This document shows positions 25,745 through 45,024 of a stretch of 47,388 nt of DNA, one piece after another. The stretch lies in the NCBI GenBank assembly GCA_018658715.1, contig JABHUQ010000105.1, forward strand, positions 1-47,388, written 5' to 3'. The first letter of the stretch is position 1. Every line of letters starts with the position of its first letter. Made by a program: the position numbers and the translations under genes. Source of the stretch: Fidelibacterota bacterium (GTDB lineage Bacteria; Fidelibacterota; Marinisomatia; Marinisomatales; UBA1611). A model generated the notes under the pieces. The model worked only from the letters and a program-made list of their open reading frames with translations, made no database searches and was not told where the DNA came from.

Positions 25745-26490
25745 TTATTGCACTTTTAAAAAGGCGATTATGGCTATGGCAAAACCAATTTCTTTCCCTG
25801 TTAGTCTTATTTCTCATTTTTCCAATTGCTATTTTTTCTTTATTGGATTTATCAATGAGAAATATATTTATCCAAAGTTTAGGGAATATTCCATATGATC
25901 AATGGGCCTTTCCTGGAATAGTCGCTATTATTGGTTCATTGGTAATATTTCCGCCTATTTACCGAGATTTCTTTCATTTAAGAGTTCATGGAAAAGTATT
26001 AAAAACCGTTGCATTAGCTCCTTTTACGAAGAGATCAATGGTTATATCATTTCTTGGTATTGCTGTATTAGAAGCATTAATTATATCTATCGGAACGAGT
26101 ATTCTCTTCGTAAACATTATTTCAACTGGTTTTACAATTGGAGATTTGTTAATTCTTTATTTCTTCTTGGCTATTCTTTTTTGTTTAATTGGGAATTTAT
26201 TTATTTCAATGGCATTATGGATTGAGTCTGCAACATCATTTTTGTTAGCAACATTTTTAACATATTTTATCTTAGTTTTTGGGTCGGGTTTAATTTTTGA
26301 ATTAAACTATTTCCCTGTGTCCTTAGAATTTATTTTATCTCTATTTCCATTTAGTATATTAATTAAAACAATGCATTTATCTTTATTTGCAAATATCTTT
26401 GAATGGACAATCATAGTACCATTGATACTCCTAATTATTTTATGGTCCGCAGGGAATGGATTACTTCTGCGAAAGAAATTAATTCAATGA
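25741..26490 (+). CDS. ABC-2-type transporter permease
   Basis: 249 aa with six predicted membrane segments (for example FLSLLVLFLIFPIAIFSLL, GIVAIIGSLVIFPPIY, ISFLGIAVLEALIISIGTSI, LLILYFFLAILFCLIGNLF). The N-terminal cytoplasmic start and the segment order fit ABC-2 exporters, with an amphipathic stretch RDFFHLRVHGKVLKTVALAP before the third segment, where such permeases contact the ATPase. The substrate is unknown. It overlaps the ATPase gene (ATGA) and the following enzyme gene (ATGA), so all three are coupled. Confidence 0.82.
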   Translation: MIIALLKRRLWLWQNQFLSLLVLFLIFPIAIFSLLDLSMRNIFIQSLGNIPYDQWAFPGIVAIIGSLVIFPPIYRDFFHLRVHGKVLKTVALAPFTKRSMVISFLGIAVLEALIISIGTSILFVNIISTGFTIGDLLILYFFLAILFCLIGNLFISMALWIESATSFLLATFLTYFILVFGSGLIFELNYFPVSLEFILSLFPFSILIKTMHLSLFANIFEWTIIVPLILLIILWSAGNGLLLRKKLIQ

Positions 26491-26954
26491 TTGTATATTT
26501 ATCAGGAGCAATGGAATTTGCCGAAGGAGAAGGAGCAGATTGGCGTAGAGAAATAACTTTATGGCTAGCTGAGAATTTAGAACATATCGTAATTGATCCT
26601 GTGATTGAATCTGATAAATTAGCGATGAAACATAATGCATTAGGATTCCGAAAATGGAAAGAAGAGAACCATGAACTTTATATAGATTTTATTCAGAAAG
26701 CTGTGGATTATGACATTGATGCTGTTTTAAATAAAGCAGATTATTTGATTTGTTTGTGGAATGAAAGTGTTTTTAAGGGAGCTGGAACGCATGGAGAAGT
26801 CACGTTAGCCTATTATGCAGGTAAACCAATTTATTTAGTCAATCATGTAGCTCAAAGTGATTTAAGTGGTTGGATTGAGGCGTGCAAAACAGAAATGTTT
26901 AATAATTTCGATCAATTAAAGACCCATTTATTGTCTGCTTATTCTAATGGATAA
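26487..26954 (+). CDS. Nucleoside 2-deoxyribosyltransferase-like protein
   Basis: 155 aa from ATG 26487 (ATGA overlap with the permease). It opens MIVYLSGAMEFAEGEGADWR, the nucleotide-handling start of the NDT/DUF4406 group. The C-terminal half has NKADYLICLWNESVFKGAGTHGEVTLAYYAGKP in outline: an acidic strand end, G-T-H-G-E with the nucleophile-type Glu, and the GKP turn. Members cleave or transfer N-glycosidic bonds of nucleosides or nucleotides; many are uncharacterised. It is joined to alr by an 8-nt overlap, which does not explain its role. Confidence 0.7.
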   Translation: MIVYLSGAMEFAEGEGADWRREITLWLAENLEHIVIDPVIESDKLAMKHNALGFRKWKEENHELYIDFIQKAVDYDIDAVLNKADYLICLWNESVFKGAGTHGEVTLAYYAGKPIYLVNHVAQSDLSGWIEACKTEMFNNFDQLKTHLLSAYSNG

Positions 26955-28688: not shown

Positions 28689-30227
28689 CTAAAATCCTAT
28701 ACCAGCAGGGTCAATGCCCAAAACTCCAACCCAATAAAAAATGACCATTACAACTAATACCATTATCGCTACTGGCCATCCTAAACTTGCCATCCGAATA
28801 AAATCTTTTGATTCCAATTGACCGCTCGCATAAACAATGGAACTTGCGGGTGTTCCTATGACTAGCCAATAAGCCATAGATGTTGCAATAGCCAGCCCAA
28901 CTCCTACTAAGATTGGATTTGTCCCTGATGATTGAGCCATATCAAGCACTACAGGTCCAATAACAGCAACTGTTGCTCCGGCACTCATGAGATTGGTTAA
29001 TGTTGCTCCAATGACACCAACTAATACAACAAGTCCAACTCCAGAGTTTAGACCCAATGGGGCTACAAGATTAATAATTTGATCTGCAAACCAACTTGAT
29101 GCACCCGTTGCTTTAAAAACACTTCCAAGACTAATACAACCCGCATAAAGTATAATAACACCCCAGCTAACTTTTTCTTCATAATCTTGCCAAGATGTTA
29201 ATCCAAGTATCATGTATAAAACAGCACCTGTTATGGCAACACCTCCTAAACCAAGAGAGAATCCAAGTACTTGAACCGTGAGTGATTTATCTACGATCCA
29301 TCCAATAACAACCATAAGCATAACAAATGCCACTAGCCATTGTTTTTGAGTCATAGGGCCATGTTTATCTAAATCTTTTTTCAAGTCTGATACTGCACCA
29401 CTTAAATCATCTACTTCAGGCTTAAATAATAATGGTAATAAAAATGACATCACAATAGACATGACGAACGTATAAAAAACACCCATTGCAATCCATTGCC
29501 CAAATGATACATCCACTCCAATATTAGATAAAAAACCTATCATAAGAGCATTCCGAGCTCCACCTGTTGGACTCATTGGGCCACCAATCATACAGCCAAC
29601 AGCGATGGTAACCATTAGTAATGTTCCTAATTTGGGAGCTGGAGTTGTTTTATTTGTTAAGGTATAGAGAGCCATAGCAATAGGTACATACATAGCTGCA
29701 ACTGCATGCTCGCCAACAAATGCAGTTGGGATTGCTGTCCCTAATAATATACCAATCACTATCATTCTAGTTTTTGTACCTGCTAAATTAATAACAAGCA
29801 TTCCAACACGTTTATCTAAACCATATTTTACAAGAGTAGCACCTAATGCTAAGGATCCAGCAATAAACCAAACAGCATCATGAGCATAAGTGCCGACAAT
29901 TGCTTTTGGGGCTGTTATTCCAAAAAAGAGTTGTACAAGCCCAATAATAAGAGCAACAGCGGGCATAGGAATAGCTTCTGTGGCAAAAAAGACAACACAG
30001 GTTGCTAATAGAGCAATTGTAATTTTGATGTGGTATGCTTTTAAAGCAAAATCAACGTTAGAATCAGTTCCGAAAATATCCTTTGCTTTCTCTAACATGG
30101 AATCTGGTAGTGGCATTACAATACCTACAAGGAAAAATAAAACTAAGCCGACCCCCAGCCACTTGAAATCAGTGGTTTTTGCAAATCCACTGGCTTTTTT
30201 TTCTGTATTTTGTTTTGGTTTGCTCAT
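28689..30227 (-). CDS. DASS/SLC13-family sodium:dicarboxylate or sulfate symporter
   Basis: 512 aa, minus strand, with about 11-13 membrane segments. It opens with a charged tail and WLGVGLVLFFLVGIVMPLP. Family marks are two repeats with hairpin signatures: MIGGPMSPTGGARNALMIGF in the first half and IGATLTNLMSAGATVAVIGP in the second, plus VIGTPASSIVYASGQLESKD near the C-terminus, the SLC13 pattern. It would import C4-dicarboxylates, sulfate or a similar anion with sodium. The helper gene lies directly downstream. The divergent SSS symporter gene starts only 68-110 bp away. Confidence 0.88.
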   Translation of the reverse strand: MSKPKQNTEKKASGFAKTTDFKWLGVGLVLFFLVGIVMPLPDSMLEKAKDIFGTDSNVDFALKAYHIKITIALLATCVVFFATEAIPMPAVALIIGLVQLFFGITAPKAIVGTYAHDAVWFIAGSLALGATLVKYGLDKRVGMLVINLAGTKTRMIVIGILLGTAIPTAFVGEHAVAAMYVPIAMALYTLTNKTTPAPKLGTLLMVTIAVGCMIGGPMSPTGGARNALMIGFLSNIGVDVSFGQWIAMGVFYTFVMSIVMSFLLPLLFKPEVDDLSGAVSDLKKDLDKHGPMTQKQWLVAFVMLMVVIGWIVDKSLTVQVLGFSLGLGGVAITGAVLYMILGLTSWQDYEEKVSWGVIILYAGCISLGSVFKATGASSWFADQIINLVAPLGLNSGVGLVVLVGVIGATLTNLMSAGATVAVIGPVVLDMAQSSGTNPILVGVGLAIATSMAYWLVIGTPASSIVYASGQLESKDFIRMASLGWPVAIMVLVVMVIFYWVGVLGIDPAGIGF

Positions 30228-30337
30228 AAATATGAGTTAAAAATGGTGATTTTTTCTTTTTACTGCAAGAGGAAAGTATAAATCCCCTAAATTAGATGAT
30301 TCATAGAACACATTTTATTGAAGGAAATAATAGCGTC

Positions 30338-31732
30338 ATGAGTTGGATTGACCTTACAATTATAATCTTTTTTCTCACTGGAGTTACTGCCTATGGGATT
30401 TATTCTGGAAGATTTAATAAAACAACGGAAGATTACTTCTTAGGAGGAAGAAACCTTCCTTGGGTTGTGGCTCTTTTTTCAATTGTGGCGACAGAAACAT
30501 CCGTTTTAACATTTGTTAGTGTACCAGGAATGGCATATCGTGGTGATTGGACTTTTCTACAATTAGCGATGGGTTATATCCTTGGTCGTATTTTGGTTTC
30601 ATTATATTTACTTCCAAAATTCTATAATTCAGGTGTTACATCCATTTATGAAATTATTGGGAATCGTTTTTCTCCAAACGTTCAAAAAGCCGCTTCAGGT
30701 GTATTTCTAGTTACTCGTTTATTAGCCGATGGAATTAGGTATTTAGCGACAGCTGTTGTTGTTCAGGCTGTAACGGGTTGGCCCATCTGGATGGCAGTTA
30801 TCCTGATTGGAATTATTACATTAATCTATACATTGTCGGGTGGGATTCGAACGGTTATGTGGATTGATAGTTTTCAATTTATCCTATATTTAGGAGGTGG
30901 ATTAATTGCCATCTTTTTTAGTCTACAAGCATTGGATGGATCCATTCCAGAAATTATGGCTTCTTTGTCCAAAGCAGGGAAAACTAAAGTTTTTAATTGG
31001 GGCTGGAATTGGTTTAGTGATCCTTGGCTCTTTGGAAGTGCTTTTATTGGAGGCTCATTTTTATCATTTGCATCTCATGGAGCAGATCATATGATGGTAC
31101 AAAGAGTATTAGGAACACGCAATTTGCAATCTGCTAAAAAGGCTATGATTGGAAGTGGCTTTTTTGTATTACTCCAGTTCTTTATTTTTCTTTTAGTTGG
31201 TTCTTTAATTTATCTTCAAATGGGCGGAGTAGAGATTCAAAAAGATCGAGAATTCACTATCTTTATTACCGAATATTTACCTATTGGTGTTCGAGGCTTA
31301 TTATTAGCTGGAATTTTATCTGCAGCTATGTCGACACTTAGTTCATCTATTAATGCATTGGCGTCTTCAACCGTCATTGATTGGTTTGGGAAAAATGCGA
31401 GTCTTTCTCTTTCGAAATCGTTCAGTGTTTTTTGGGCTATTATTCTTATCATTATTGCATTAGTATTTGATGAAGGTGATTCAGCCATTGTTATTATTGG
31501 GCTTCAAATAGCTTCTTTTACCTATGGTGGATTGCTGGGCTTATTTATATTAACTAAGCTTAACAGAGATTTTTCATCTGTGTCCTTAATTGTTGGTTTA
31601 ATTGGAAGTTTAGTGACAGTTTTTATATCAAAATCTTATGGTTTAGCTTGGACATGGTTTATAGCATTCTCCACTTTGGTTAATATAGGATTAACTCACA
31701 TAGTGGATATGTTTTTCCCATCTAAAAAATAA
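30338..31732 (+). CDS. Sodium:solute symporter (SSS family)
   Basis: 464 aa from ATG 30338, preceded by AAGGA; ATG 30296 in frame would add 14 residues. The start SWIDLTIIIFFLTGVTAYGIYSG and DYFLGGRNLPW are classic SSS features. ATETSVLTFVSVPGMAYRGD carries the sodium-site region, and ILSAAMSTLSSSINALASS supplies the second sodium-site serines. About 13 membrane segments. Its stop overlaps the next ATG (TAATG), so it is co-transcribed with the NamZ-like gene and may import the muramyl sugar that enzyme releases. Confidence 0.88.
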   Translation: MSWIDLTIIIFFLTGVTAYGIYSGRFNKTTEDYFLGGRNLPWVVALFSIVATETSVLTFVSVPGMAYRGDWTFLQLAMGYILGRILVSLYLLPKFYNSGVTSIYEIIGNRFSPNVQKAASGVFLVTRLLADGIRYLATAVVVQAVTGWPIWMAVILIGIITLIYTLSGGIRTVMWIDSFQFILYLGGGLIAIFFSLQALDGSIPEIMASLSKAGKTKVFNWGWNWFSDPWLFGSAFIGGSFLSFASHGADHMMVQRVLGTRNLQSAKKAMIGSGFFVLLQFFIFLLVGSLIYLQMGGVEIQKDREFTIFITEYLPIGVRGLLLAGILSAAMSTLSSSINALASSTVIDWFGKNASLSLSKSFSVFWAIILIIIALVFDEGDSAIVIIGLQIASFTYGGLLGLFILTKLNRDFSSVSLIVGLIGSLVTVFISKSYGLAWTWFIAFSTLVNIGLTHIVDMFFPSKK

Positions 31733-33033
31733 TGAAATATTTTTTCCATATATTACTAATTGCACAATGTGCTATGGGTGAATCTGATTCATCAAAATTT
31801 TTTTATTCACAGGTAATGGATATCCCAGATTTATCTTTTTTAAATCGTGTGTATTCTGGACTAGATATTTTGGAACAGATGGATTTTAAACCGTTACGTG
31901 GAAAAAATATTGGAATTTTATGTAATCAAACATCTGTGAATCACAATGGGAAACATATTTTAGATTTACTAAAACCATTTGAAGATATTGATGTATCAGT
32001 CCTTTTTTCACCAGAATATGGATTATGGGGATCGGATGATAAACGAATTATTTTAAATAGTGGGCATGAAATTGATCCTGTTCATGGAGCTAGAATTATT
32101 GATTTATTTGAGCGATATAAAGTGCCACCAAAGTGGGCCATTTCTAAACTGGATTACATAATAGTAGATATCCAAGATACGGGTGTTCGCTATTCAACAT
32201 TTATGACATCTATTACTAAATTAATGGAAACAGCCAGTGATCATAAAGTGCCAGTCATGATTTTGGATCGCCCTAATCCTATCCGCGCCAATACCTTTGA
32301 TGGCCCCATCCCAAGGCCGGAATATCAATCGTTTGAAGCGTACCATTTAGTGCCGATACGCCATGGGTTAACGATTGGGGAATATGCCATTCTTGTAAAT
32401 GAAAATGGATGGGTTCGAGAATTGAAAAGGGTAGACCTTCATATTATTCCAATGGCCAACTATAAACGTAATATGTCTTTTGGTGATACCAAATTGCCTT
32501 GGATAAATCCAACACCATTTTTAAAAGATGTTGAATCAACACTCATGTATGCGGGTATGGATCTTTTTCGTGGAACCAATATTAATGTTGGATTTGGAAC
32601 AGATAAACCCTACTTAAGATTTGGATCTCCTTGGCTATCCAACCGATATTTAAAAGAACAATTAGATAATTTAAATATGCCTGGCGTATCGTTTAAATTG
32701 CTAAAGTATAAACCAATGGGACATGAAGGTAAAAAGAAAGTCCCGCAATATGACCAATCATTCTGTAGTGGTATTGAAATACAAATTACAGATCCAGCAA
32801 CCTGCAATCCCATTATAGTTGGCACATCGATCCTACTATTAATTGAACGAATTCATCCGCGAGAGTTTCAGTGGATTGGGAATGGGTATGTGGACAAATT
32901 ATATGGATCAAACTTTTTTAGAATATTTGCTGCACAAAAAAAACCACCATCTCATTTACCATCCTTATGGATGCATGACATTCTAAAATTTAGCACATTT
33001 CGGAATACCTATCTTATTTATGGTAATGCCTAA
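31732..33033 (+). CDS. DUF1343 protein, NamZ-like exo-N-acetylmuramidase (GH171)
   Basis: 433 aa with an N-terminal signal sequence (KYFFHILLIAQCAMG). Family marks are IGILCNQTSVNHNGKH, LFSPEYGLWG (the catalytic-Glu region, usually PEHGFRG), IIVDIQDTGVRYSTF, MILDRPNPI and the C-terminal GMDLFRGTNINVGFGTDKP. Characterised NamZ releases N-acetylmuramic acid from the non-reducing ends of peptidoglycan fragments. The PEYG variant replaces the family His with Tyr. It is likely periplasmic and sits between an SSS symporter and an outer-membrane barrel. Confidence 0.85.
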   Translation: MKYFFHILLIAQCAMGESDSSKFFYSQVMDIPDLSFLNRVYSGLDILEQMDFKPLRGKNIGILCNQTSVNHNGKHILDLLKPFEDIDVSVLFSPEYGLWGSDDKRIILNSGHEIDPVHGARIIDLFERYKVPPKWAISKLDYIIVDIQDTGVRYSTFMTSITKLMETASDHKVPVMILDRPNPIRANTFDGPIPRPEYQSFEAYHLVPIRHGLTIGEYAILVNENGWVRELKRVDLHIIPMANYKRNMSFGDTKLPWINPTPFLKDVESTLMYAGMDLFRGTNINVGFGTDKPYLRFGSPWLSNRYLKEQLDNLNMPGVSFKLLKYKPMGHEGKKKVPQYDQSFCSGIEIQITDPATCNPIIVGTSILLLIERIHPREFQWIGNGYVDKLYGSNFFRIFAAQKKPPSHLPSLWMHDILKFSTFRNTYLIYGNA

Positions 33034-34591
33034 AAGGTTATTGCGTCTCACCCTACTTATTATTTTGCTAAACATTTCGGTTAGTTTTAGTCATAATTAT
33101 CGAACTGTTCCAGCAAATGTTTGGAGACTATCTGTTCAATCAAATTTTGAGAATTATAGTTGGAATATCCCAAATCAACCCATAAATCTCAGGGAATTAG
33201 GTCGACGATATTTTGATGATCAAACCATAGATGAAAATGGGTTTTATTCTAGTATGATGGATTTTGTTCAACTAGGAAAAACACCGTTAGATACAATTCA
33301 AACAATTGGTCAATATTTAGATAGCTTAAATCAATCAAATGGTTTTTCATTACCTGCTTTTTCAAGTGAATATTTTGACACTACCCAAGCATTAGATGTA
33401 AGTTGTGTAATATCTGAAAAAAGATCTAAAACATTAGCGACAAATACTTATATGATTGATTATGGTTTAACGGATATTTTCACTGCACATTTGTCCGTAC
33501 CAATGATACAAAAGCAAACTATTTCGATTGAATATTTTGACTTGAAGAGTAATGAGATTCAAGGATTAAGTGACTTTATTTCTTATCATCAAAATGCGAG
33601 AACAGACTTTGAATTATTTTTATTGTCGAATGATTATGCATCTTTATCGGCAAATGATAAGTCTAATATTCAATTAATATATAATCAATTATATTCTGAA
33701 GGTGGTGATCAATCGATGTTATGGGCATTGGATAGTGGAGAAAACCCATTGGCAAATGGATTATTTCTATCTGACTTCAACCCCACCACACAGAAAGATA
33801 GTGTTACTTATTCGGACTTATTATCTTACTATTACCCGGAATCCTATAGTGCAGCAGGACTTGGAGATATTTCTATTGGAGTATCATTTTTAATCTATGG
33901 AGATGCACCATGGTTTGGAAAGAAACCTTATGCATTTTTTGGTCATCTTTCTTCCATTCTTCCAATAGGGAAAACAGTTGATTATTACACATCTCAAAAG
34001 GATTCATCAAATAAACGATTGCAATTTTCGTCAATGTCCGTTGGCTCAGGTGTTGCATCATACCAAATTGGATTTGGGTGGAATATTAATTTAAAACATG
34101 ATTTAAATCCTCGATGGTTTGGTGCAATAGATTCTAGAGTATCAATCGCAGAAAAATTACCCACCCCTATTCGGTTGCTTGGATTCGGCCATACTCATCC
34201 AGATTCAAATGTTGTATCTGTTGGCAGGGAATACAGGTTTAAACCTGGGGATGCATTGTTATTTGAGACAGGAATGGAATTATTTCCTGATGCCAAACAT
34301 CGATTATCTATTCAATTTAAATATCAATATTTTTCGAAGAAACAGGATTCATTTGTAAGTTTAGATTCCGATTGGAACCAATGGATGCAATCTCATAATG
34401 GATATGATACTAAAAATCATGCAGGGCTGATTCACTTTTCTCTTTGGTTGCATAATAACCAGCCGCGATTTCAAATGGGCCCAATACCTTTCAATGCTAT
34501 GATGTATTTTAGTTTACCTGCTGGTGCTAAAAATATTTGGTCTGGATTGACAGGAGGGTTTGGTTTAACATTTTATTTTCAGAAGTGGTAA
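33020..34591 (+). CDS. Predicted outer-membrane beta-barrel protein
   Basis: 523 aa; ATG 33020 or 33026, both overlapping the NamZ-like stop. Signal peptide LLRLTLLIILLNISVSFS. The N-terminal ~250 residues hold a large segment with few barrel strands (RRYFDDQTIDENGFYSSM and similar). The C-terminal half has alternating strands (LGDISIGVSFLIYGD, YQIGFGWNINLKH, ALLFETGMELFP, LSIQFKYQYFSK, IHFSLWLHNN). It ends in an aromatic residue pair near the C-terminus (FYFQKW), as outer-membrane proteins often do. Function unknown; it may be a porin-like uptake route for the locus. Confidence 0.6.
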   Translation: MVMPKRLLRLTLLIILLNISVSFSHNYRTVPANVWRLSVQSNFENYSWNIPNQPINLRELGRRYFDDQTIDENGFYSSMMDFVQLGKTPLDTIQTIGQYLDSLNQSNGFSLPAFSSEYFDTTQALDVSCVISEKRSKTLATNTYMIDYGLTDIFTAHLSVPMIQKQTISIEYFDLKSNEIQGLSDFISYHQNARTDFELFLLSNDYASLSANDKSNIQLIYNQLYSEGGDQSMLWALDSGENPLANGLFLSDFNPTTQKDSVTYSDLLSYYYPESYSAAGLGDISIGVSFLIYGDAPWFGKKPYAFFGHLSSILPIGKTVDYYTSQKDSSNKRLQFSSMSVGSGVASYQIGFGWNINLKHDLNPRWFGAIDSRVSIAEKLPTPIRLLGFGHTHPDSNVVSVGREYRFKPGDALLFETGMELFPDAKHRLSIQFKYQYFSKKQDSFVSLDSDWNQWMQSHNGYDTKNHAGLIHFSLWLHNNQPRFQMGPIPFNAMMYFSLPAGAKNIWSGLTGGFGLTFYFQKW

Positions 34592-34599
34592 AGAAATAT

Positions 34600-35874
34600 A
34601 TGAAATACGATAAAGAGATTTGGAGTTGGTCCATTTATGACTGGGCAAATTCTGCATTTTCAACAACAGTTATGGCTGGGTTTTTCCCCATCTTTTTTGA
34701 AAAATATTGGTCGAATCCAGATGATGTAATTCAAAGTACATACATGCTTGGAATGGGAAACGCTGCCGGATCGATTATTATTGCTGCATTGGCTCCTTTT
34801 TTAGGCGCCATAGCTGATCGCGGCTCTGCAAAGAAAAAGTTTTTATTTATTTTTGTGCTTATGGGTATTCTTTCGACAGGAGCTCTCTGGATGGTGGCAC
34901 AAGGGCAGTGGGATATGGCCATGTTTCTTTATATTATTGCAACCGTTGGATTTATGGGAAGTAACATATTTTATGATTCTTTACTGCCATCTATTTCGAC
35001 TAATAAAACAGTGGATTCAGTTTCATCTCTTGGATATGCTTTAGGATATATTGGTGGTGGGCTCCTTTTCCTCGTTAATGTTTTAATGTATCAAAATCCA
35101 GATTGGTTTGGAATAGCAGATCAACCTACAGCTATTAAATTATCTTTTTTATCTGTTGCTATTTGGTGGGGAATCTTTACCATTCCAATTTTCCTTTTTG
35201 TTCAAGAGCCAAAAAATCCTAATGCTACACCGCTTGGAAAAGCAGTATTTCAAGGATGGGGTCAGCTAAAAATCACCTTGTCACATATTCGATCTCTTAA
35301 AGTAACAGGACTGTTTCTTATGGCATATTGGCTTTATATAGATGGAGTTGACACTATAATTAAAATGGCTGTCAAAATGGGATCCACACTTGGTTTTGGG
35401 ACAACCACTCTCATTGCTGCATTACTCATGGTTCAATTCATTGCGTTCCCAGCGGCGTTAGCTTATAATTGGTTTGCCAGTAAAATTGGAACAAAAAAGG
35501 CTGTCCAAATTGCCATTGGCGGATATGCTGCTGGAACGATTCTTGGTACATTTATGACGAGTGAATTACACTTTTTTGGATTAGCTGCTTTAATTGGAAT
35601 ATTCCAAGGTGGTATCCAAGCATTAAGTCGGAGTTTATTTGCTAGGTTAATTCCAAAAGGGAAGGAAGCAGAATTTTACGGATTCTATAATATGCTAGGG
35701 AAATTTGCCGCTGTCATTGGTCCCGTCTTAATGGGTTGGGTTACACTTGTGACTGAAAATGCTCGATTTGGTATTTTTTCCATTACAATATTATTTATAG
35801 CCGGTAGCTATTTATTATCAAAAGTTGATATGGAAAAAGGAGAAAAAATGGCAAAGGAGTTTAGCCATATTTAG
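34600..35874 (+). CDS. UMF1-type MFS transporter (Atg22-like)
   Basis: 424 aa from ATG 34600; upstream Mets lie in the previous gene. It opens IWSWSIYDWANSAFSTTV, the hallmark of the UMF1/Vps22-Atg22 MFS subgroup, and ends with SRSLFARLIPKGKEAEFYGF and GKFAAVIGPVLMGW, also typical. Twelve membrane segments. Fungal Atg22 exports amino acids from the vacuole; bacterial members are not characterised. It lies 8 nt after the barrel gene and may export or import a breakdown product of the same pathway, which is inference. Confidence 0.87.
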   Translation: MKYDKEIWSWSIYDWANSAFSTTVMAGFFPIFFEKYWSNPDDVIQSTYMLGMGNAAGSIIIAALAPFLGAIADRGSAKKKFLFIFVLMGILSTGALWMVAQGQWDMAMFLYIIATVGFMGSNIFYDSLLPSISTNKTVDSVSSLGYALGYIGGGLLFLVNVLMYQNPDWFGIADQPTAIKLSFLSVAIWWGIFTIPIFLFVQEPKNPNATPLGKAVFQGWGQLKITLSHIRSLKVTGLFLMAYWLYIDGVDTIIKMAVKMGSTLGFGTTTLIAALLMVQFIAFPAALAYNWFASKIGTKKAVQIAIGGYAAGTILGTFMTSELHFFGLAALIGIFQGGIQALSRSLFARLIPKGKEAEFYGFYNMLGKFAAVIGPVLMGWVTLVTENARFGIFSITILFIAGSYLLSKVDMEKGEKMAKEFSHI

Positions 35875-35931: not shown

Positions 35932-35939
35932 TTAGAGAG

Positions 35940-36012
35940 AATAAGCCTTGTTGATATGGCGTGCTCTTCAGAGAAAAATGTTTTTCTCGAGGGTTAATCA
36001 ACAGGGCTTATT
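35940..36012. promoter_or_regulatory. Two-tier leader hairpin or terminator upstream of the thioesterase
   Basis: The outer stem is 16 bp: AATAAGCCTTGTTGAT (35940-35955) against ATCAACAGGGCTTATT (35997-36012), all paired as RNA with one G·U. Inside is a second perfect 8-bp hairpin, GAGAAAAA-TG-TTTTTCTC (35971-35988). The right arm is followed by a T-rich stretch (TTGTTTTATTGTTG), and the thioesterase ATG lies 34 nt downstream. It could terminate the MFS transcript or be a leader attenuator for the thioesterase. Confidence 0.6.
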
Positions 36013-36045
36013 TGTTTTATTGTTGTAAATTCAACTACACATTTT

Positions 36046-43590: not shown

Positions 43591-45024
43591 ATGATTTATC
43601 TTATTACAATTTCCATTTATCTTTTTACACTCATTGGATTAGGTGTTTATAAATCTTGGAAAATAAAAACACAATCTGATTTTTCTGTTGCAGGTCGTTC
43701 ATTAACACCATGGGTGTTGGTTGGAACCATGTTAGCCACTTGGATTGGAACTGGGTCCATCCTAGGAAATGCTGGGAAAGCCTATCAAACGGGATTAGCT
43801 GCACTCATGTTACCCATGGGCGGTGTGTTTGGCATTATCATTTTGACACAGATTGCAGGAAAAGTAAGAGCATTTGAAAAGTTTACGGTTCCAGAAATCA
43901 TTGGCGACCGATATGGATCGAAGGCACGAATTTTAAGTGTAATCGCTTTAGTCATAGCTTATATGGTGATTGTGAGTTATCAATTCAATGCAGGGGGAGC
44001 AGTCCTCAAAACTGTATTGCAGGATGGTCATGGAAATCCACTCATTACAGTTCAAACTGGAACCATCATTGCAGCCATATTTATTATTGCGTATACCATG
44101 TTGGCTGGACTTGTAAGTGTAGCGTATACTGACGTTGCCAACGGTATTATTATGACACTTGCTTTAGCCATAGCTTTTCCCATTTTTTGGTTGAAAGCTG
44201 GCGGATGGAGTGGAATGGAATATTCTTTTGGTCAAATGGAGAAGCCAGAGCATATGCAATTTTGGGGCGTATATTCAGGGATGGATATTTTGAATTTTTG
44301 TTTACCACCTTTTTTATTGGTTCTGGGCGATGCCAATATGTATCAACGGTTTTTTGCAAGTAAAGATGCAAAAGGAGCGAAAAAAGCTACAACCGTATTG
44401 GTTGTTGTTATTGCTATTATTGAAATATTGATTATTGCTTCTGCGTGGGTGAGTTCAAGTTTAATCCCAGACGCCGTAAATGGGCGGCATGTTTTAATCT
44501 ATGCAGCTCATTCTTTTCTGCCACCATTCATTGGTGCTATTATGATGACTACAATTGTGGGTATCATAATTTCAACCGCTGATTCTTATTTATTAGTTCC
44601 TGCAACAACATTAATGAGAGATATTTATCAAACATATATCAACCCCAAAGTGAGTGAAACGAAAGCTGTTCTATTAAGCCGACTTCTTGTTTTAGGGTTA
44701 GGCATTTTAGCTTATATTGTATCTTTGGGCTTTGCAAAATCAGAAGGATTCTTTGAACGTGCATTATATGCATATACAATTTATGGAGCGGCTATTACCC
44801 CTGCATTAGTGGCAGCATTATTTTGGGAAAGGGCATCGTCAATGGGTGCAATTGCATCTATTATTTCTGGGACCGTTATGACATTATTATGGAAAGAGGT
44901 GTCGTTTTTTCAAACAATATTACCCAATGGCATGTATCAATCGATTGATGAAGTATTGCCTGCGATTCTTGTTTCAATTATTGCGTTAGTTGGTGGAAGT
45001 ATATTATACCCGAATAAGCGTTAA
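43591..45024 (+). CDS. Sodium:solute symporter (SSS family, second copy)
   Basis: 477 aa with 13 predicted membrane segments. It opens with TISIYLFTLIGLGVYKSWKI and DFSVAGRSLTPW, the SSS start. ATWIGTGSILGNAGKAYQTG is the sodium-site loop. IISTADSYLLVPATTLMRD carries the second sodium-site serines and DYxxVP-like region. It differs clearly from the copy at 30338-31732, so it is not a recent duplicate, and it is closer in flavour to pantothenate/proline-type members. Preceded by AGGGG at 43570. The convergent GNAT gene overlaps its last 4 nt. Confidence 0.88.
   Translation: MIYLITISIYLFTLIGLGVYKSWKIKTQSDFSVAGRSLTPWVLVGTMLATWIGTGSILGNAGKAYQTGLAALMLPMGGVFGIIILTQIAGKVRAFEKFTVPEIIGDRYGSKARILSVIALVIAYMVIVSYQFNAGGAVLKTVLQDGHGNPLITVQTGTIIAAIFIIAYTMLAGLVSVAYTDVANGIIMTLALAIAFPIFWLKAGGWSGMEYSFGQMEKPEHMQFWGVYSGMDILNFCLPPFLLVLGDANMYQRFFASKDAKGAKKATTVLVVVIAIIEILIIASAWVSSSLIPDAVNGRHVLIYAAHSFLPPFIGAIMMTTIVGIIISTADSYLLVPATTLMRDIYQTYINPKVSETKAVLLSRLLVLGLGILAYIVSLGFAKSEGFFERALYAYTIYGAAITPALVAALFWERASSMGAIASIISGTVMTLLWKEVSFFQTILPNGMYQSIDEVLPAILVSIIALVGGSILYPNKR

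Follow-up and report, generated by a model that had tools for sequence, protein, structure and literature searches.

A conserved gene set around a motif-eroded NamZ protein in a marine Neomarinimicrobiota bacterium probably encodes a peptidoglycan-related transport module

The window analysed here, a stretch of 47,388 nucleotides (contig JABHUQ010000105.1), belongs to an assembly of 2.46 Mb in 115 contigs, with an estimated completeness of ~96%, from a member of Candidatus Neomarinimicrobiota (Fidelibacterota, SAR406). Between positions 30338 and 35874 it carries four tandem open reading frames (ORFs) on the + strand, which encode an SSS-family Na+ symporter, a NamZ-like protein (named here NamZ-A), a predicted outer-membrane barrel and a UMF1-family permease. 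The locus probably represents a conserved transport module related to peptidoglycan, and we put at about 0.55 the probability that it is an outlying operon of the Neomarinimicrobiota peptidoglycan-recycling or salvage system in which the function of NamZ-A has changed. The four genes are as tightly packed as a sequence-only reading of the same DNA had described them, with coordinates that were essentially right: the symporter and NamZ-A genes share 1 base, the NamZ-A gene shares 14 bases with the third gene, and 8 bases separate the end of the third gene from the UMF1 start codon (ATG at 34600). The symporter ORF may start at 30296 or 30338, the latter agreeing with the start in the closest relative. 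The nearest named relative, a Candidatus Neomarinimicrobiota metagenome-assembled genome that is apparently from the genus of the source organism, shows an identical gene order and a NamZ with 85% identity. The features of the locus are the following.

30338..31732, + strand: SSS-family Na+ symporter, probable muramyl-sugar importer
31732..33033, + strand: NamZ-A, an exported protein of the NamZ fold in which family-invariant residues are eroded
32014..32019, + strand: codons of E95-Y96, where canonical NamZ proteins have the Glu-His of their PEHG motif
32569..32595, + strand: codons of R280 to F288, where canonical NamZ proteins have the EGTxxxxGRGT motif, of which neither the Glu nor the Arg is kept
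33020..34591, + strand: predicted outer-membrane beta-barrel channel of the FapF/COG4313 type
34600..35874, + strand: UMF1/ATG22-family MFS permease, a neighbour that is probably not dedicated to the module

The survey of conservation covered 130 genomes from the order to which the source organism belongs. NamZ is present in 102 of them, and NamZ-A, the close relative of the window protein (~38-85% identity to it), was counted in 89 genomes. The neighbourhoods of 69 NamZ-A loci were read out, the linkage counts being uncorrected for shared ancestry. The barrel gene is the next gene after NamZ-A in 62 of 68 related loci and the module is therefore no chance juxtaposition; the gene order, whose conservation the sequence-only reading had proposed to check, is indeed kept in relatives. 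UMF1 is found at most four genes downstream of NamZ-A in 57 of the 69 loci, the alanine racemase gene (Alr) at most seven genes upstream in 49, and the symporter gene immediately upstream in 35. Vertical inheritance might instead have kept the genes in this order although they have no function in common, as the order of the surrounding housekeeping genes (PolA-ABC-Alr and UMF1-thioesterase-Acs-PepA) is likewise conserved. However, the symporter gene moves specifically to peptidoglycan-recycling clusters, gene fusions exist (both are described below), and NamZ-A and the barrel persist together in several families although their upstream neighbours differ, all of which makes this explanation very unlikely.

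The symporter is the best-supported part of the salvage reading, and its assignment is fairly strong. The protein matches Pfam SSF (3.5e-26); marks of one stop inside the NamZ and symporter search matches were read as terminal stops aligned to the last query residues. The contig positions of 55 high-scoring orthologues fall into three groups: 22 are no more than 3.2 kb away from NamZ-A, 27 lie instead within 8.5 kb of NagZ, AnmK, AmpG or NamZ-B (the second NamZ paralogue discussed below), and 6 are near none of these, so that 49 of the 55 are found either beside NamZ-A or in a NagZ/AmiA/AmpG/NamZ recycling cluster. At one such locus (L147), abutting genes on one strand encode a NagZ-beta-lactamase protein, an AmiA-like amidase and then the symporter. 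Orthologues occur in 70 of the 102 genomes with NamZ and in none of the 28 without it. In the deep-branching families f10, f11 and f14 a protein of 938-941 amino acids is encoded directly 5' of the symporter in the NamZ-A operon, and the matches to PF00933 (GH3/NagZ) map to these proteins, ~3 kb from the symporter. The frequency of an AmpG match also differs with the position of the symporter gene (3/37 versus 17/27), a suggestive difference that is uncorrected for kinship and does not count among the main evidence.

Among solved structures, the closest is that of the sialic acid symporter SiaT (5nv9), of the same family, in which Ser60 and Thr63 hold the carboxylate of sialic acid and Arg135 forms a salt bridge with it (PMC5931594). 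The residues of the Na2 and Na3 sites of SiaT are kept, and those corresponding to Ser60 and Thr63 are conserved in 41 of 41 symporter sequences, as are two arginines near the position of Arg135, on the same helix. In Tannerella forsythia, MurNAc uptake proceeds through MurT-MurK-MurQ, and NamZ1 and NamZ2 are found (PMC5790795, PMC10465942); Tf_MurT, the known MurNAc importer, belongs to the same superfamily as the SSS protein (PMC5790795). Because of the placement in recycling clusters, the closeness to SiaT, the conserved carboxylate-binding residues and the superfamily shared with Tf_MurT, a muramyl sugar or another acidic amino sugar is the likely substrate. Judged by family, Na+ sites and linkage to recycling genes, the symporter resembles MurT. 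In both organisms a single genome encodes a known or probable importer of the sodium-symporter superfamily together with MurQ, NamZ proteins and recycling enzymes, whereas murA and AnmK are present here and the symporter stands beside a motif-eroded NamZ and a FapF-type channel. The genome contains ten SSF matches altogether, one of them a split frame. A second SSS symporter is encoded in the window itself (43591-45024); it is distant from that of the module and has Gly for Ser and Ser for Thr at the carboxylate positions of SiaT.

NamZ-A matches both Pfam domains over their full length (NamZ_N, 2.6e-60; NamZ_C, 1.4e-30), and its AlphaFold2 model (pLDDT 82.6) matches 4k05 (Foldseek E 7e-31) and 4jja, the Bacteroides fragilis fold representatives of the GH171/NamZ exo-beta-N-acetylmuramidases. 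In domains and fold, the protein agrees with the exo-muramidase-like enzyme that the sequence-only reading had proposed, but in the residues invariant in canonical members it does not. This was established by comparing 70 NamZ-A orthologues with 22 canonical sequences, namely 12 NamZ-B proteins, eight plasmid-borne proteins from several phyla including a haloarchaeon, 4k05 and 4jja. Glu95 of the PEHG motif, present in 22/22 canonical sequences, is kept in 48/70 NamZ-A proteins and replaced by Gln in 22/70. His96 (22/22) is kept in 20/70 and is another residue in 50/70, Glu280 (22/22) is kept in 15/70 and lost in 55/70, and Arg288 (21/22 canonical) is kept in only 5/70 and lost in 65/70. The window protein retains Glu95, has Tyr for His96, Arg for Glu280 and Phe for Arg288, and so departs from the canonical PEHG, EGT and GRGT motifs. 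NamZ-A proteins form a single separate clade with 100% support and have invariant residues of their own (H75, K163, H205, H211, E224 and R246). Since residues invariant in the canonical proteins have been lost, the muramidase activity of NamZ-A is doubtful on the basis of its sequence.

NamZ-A might nevertheless be a working exo-muramidase, the MurNAc it releases being imported by the adjacent symporter, with the barrel and UMF1 as membrane partners in scavenging. The complete domains, the 4k05-like predicted fold, the PEHG glutamate retained in the window protein and in most orthologues, the adjacent symporter gene and the presence of murQ and anmK in the genome are consistent with this possibility. 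It nevertheless appears unlikely, given the replacement of that glutamate by Gln in part of the clade, the loss of the other three residues in most of it, the retention of UMF1 in genomes without NamZ, and the presence in the same genome of the motif-complete NamZ-B. This paralogue (contig C28) has ~34% identity, contains the full motifs and adjoins an Amidase_2 gene. Several haloarchaeal plasmids also carry DUF1343/NamZ-type genes, among them a Haladaptatus pallidirubidus plasmid on which such a gene (L128, 3830-5209) adjoins a GH3 gene; peptidoglycan synthesis is not known in haloarchaea.

That NamZ-fold proteins and the symporter work together is hinted at most strongly by natural fusions. 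Four genomes of one related genus encode NamZ::SSS fusions of 876-900 amino acids directly upstream of NamZ-A (L076:10348-13005, L078:10285-12912, L082:10306-12963 and L084:6300-8999). Pfam identified NamZ_N, NamZ_C and SSF in the single 886-amino-acid protein of L076, and the other three have a near-identical architecture. By reading, the fused NamZ domain, which is degenerate, also lacks the PEHG sequence. As a degenerate NamZ is joined to the symporter, NamZ-A may bind muramyl sugars or hand them over rather than cut. A second type of fusion, a symporter with a C-terminal beta-lactamase2 domain, was identified by Pfam in G092 (L143:3273-5900), and an ORF of the same length is present in G093 (L144:1589-4219). 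A bolder and rather unlikely proposal is that NamZ-A and the symporter-fused NamZ domain are former glycosidases that now serve as periplasmic sugar-capture domains feeding the Na+ symporter, coupled to the FapF-type channel. We know of no SSS transporter assisted by a binding domain.

The third gene encodes a protein of 523 amino acids without any Pfam or NCBIfam match and without a sequence match in the PDB at E 0.1. AlphaFold2, run with 36 relatives, predicted a beta-barrel with ~12 long strands (pLDDT 87.5), and the best structural matches are FapF (5o65; Foldseek E 3.9e-13) and a COG4313 channel (4rl8), with a TM-score of ~0.7 on the target. The structural alignment shows only ~10% identity, no sequence similarity to these channels was detected, and the third protein has long extra helical segments. 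Together with the signal-like N-terminus, the C-terminal aromatic residue and the position after NamZ-A, the model predicts an outer-membrane channel of the FapF/COG4313 type, in line with the outer-membrane barrel proposed from the letters alone. The family is almost restricted to the order; the one match outside it comes from a different family within the phylum (G222), where no NamZ is nearby.

The channel and NamZ-A might also form a pair for envelope maintenance or secretion that acts on the cell's own wall, the symporter being a recycling transporter that lies beside them by chance. Barrel and NamZ-A are indeed direct neighbours more often than symporter and NamZ-A, the symporter gene relocates to other clusters, FapF, the nearest fold, is labelled a polypeptide transporter in the PDB, and Alr is near NamZ-A in most loci. 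On the other hand, one genus has the symporter joined to a NamZ domain, and the GH3/NagZ gene joins the operon in the deep-branching families. We consider such a pair improbable.

The fourth gene product matches UMF1/ATG22 (PF11700, 3.1e-69). UMF1 was found in 119 of the 130 genomes, including those of the streamlined sister family f9, where it lies near thioesterase and aminopeptidase genes. In no f9 genome was there a match to NamZ, the symporter or NagZ, or a full-length match to murQ. As UMF1 is kept in genomes without NamZ, the channel and the recycling genes, it is probably not a dedicated member of the set in which the sequence-only reading had placed it but a co-located housekeeping permease. 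UMF1 was also considered as a substitute for AmpG, for which no match was found in the source genus, and was rejected in this role for its retention in genomes without recycling genes.

As the sequence-only reading had stated, the window contains neither a MurNAc kinase gene nor murQ. Both murQ (contig C9) and anmK were found elsewhere in the genome, where that reading had suggested looking for salvage genes. AnmK is encoded in a cluster on contig C28 together with a NagZ-beta-lactamase fusion, an AmiA-like amidase, a SpoIID-domain protein and a ROK-family regulator. A kinase-like ORF beside these genes gave no Pfam match; by eye we take it to resemble BadF-type kinases, and a 773-amino-acid ORF presumably resembles NagB, likewise by eye. 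Salvage of muramyl sugars is partly supported: it is favoured by murQ, anmK, NagZ, the second NamZ, the linkage of the symporter, the conserved gene order and the joint absence of NamZ, the symporter and NagZ from f9, and disfavoured by the sequence of NamZ-A. The only synthesis marker examined, murA, was above the cut-off, and peptidoglycan auxotrophy was rejected on murA alone. With murA present, recycling of the own wall fits as well as the proposed scavenging from other cells, and both are possible.

In the outlying-operon reading, small muramyl sugars (MurNAc, anhydroMurNAc or related fragments) would be produced in the periplasm by the other cluster, through NamZ-B, NagZ and amidases, or would enter through the FapF-type channel. 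NamZ-A would bind them or process them in a changed way, the symporter would take them in with Na+, and AnmK or possibly another kinase, MurQ and the NagB-like enzyme would pass them to central metabolism. The sequences themselves show the gene identities, the conserved linkage, the presence of the downstream pathway genes, the residue losses, the predicted channel fold and the fusions; which substrate is carried, which way it flows and that NamZ-A binds it are what we infer.

Several observations weigh against this reading. The PEHG glutamate (E95) is still present in the window NamZ-A, and the eroded positions are defined by their invariance in sequence across the family. Arg135 of SiaT corresponds to Ala in the symporter, and SSS-family proteins transport many different solutes. 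Much of the source family has no symporter gene beside NamZ-A, a divergent DASS gene abutting NamZ-A there, and shared ancestry, for which the linkage counts are uncorrected, may contribute to them.

Two further features flank the operon.

30228..30337, no strand: divergent intergenic region between the DASS gene (- strand) and the symporter gene (+ strand), presumed operon promoter from the sequence layout
35933..36019, + strand: strong hairpin after UMF1, candidate transcript end (RNA fold -35.3 kcal/mol, z -5.8)

The very stable hairpin lies between the UMF1 and thioesterase genes; a scan for promoter and terminator consensus sequences gave nothing exceeding chance. The DASS-family anion symporter gene (28689-30227, - strand) stays in its place even where the SSS gene is absent. 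An ORF of 183 amino acids (26403-26954) without any Pfam or NCBIfam match, flanked by the genes for the ABC permease and for alanine racemase, keeps its position in 35 loci.

Neomarinimicrobiota (SAR406) are bacteria widespread in the sea, where peptidoglycan is among the major pools of organic nitrogen. The first cultured member of the phylum, Fidelibacter multiformis, lives on cell-wall fragments of others; its dependence on muropeptides is established, and it belongs to a lineage of class AB16 without genes required for peptidoglycan synthesis (PMC11652737). The bacterium studied here shares with it the phylum and muropeptide recycling genes and differs from it in having murA. Conserved muramyl-sugar uptake outside the Fidelibacter lineage would help to explain how peptidoglycan is recycled in the sea, and a glycosidase fold reused beside, or fused with, a sodium symporter would, if true, be an unusual transport design.

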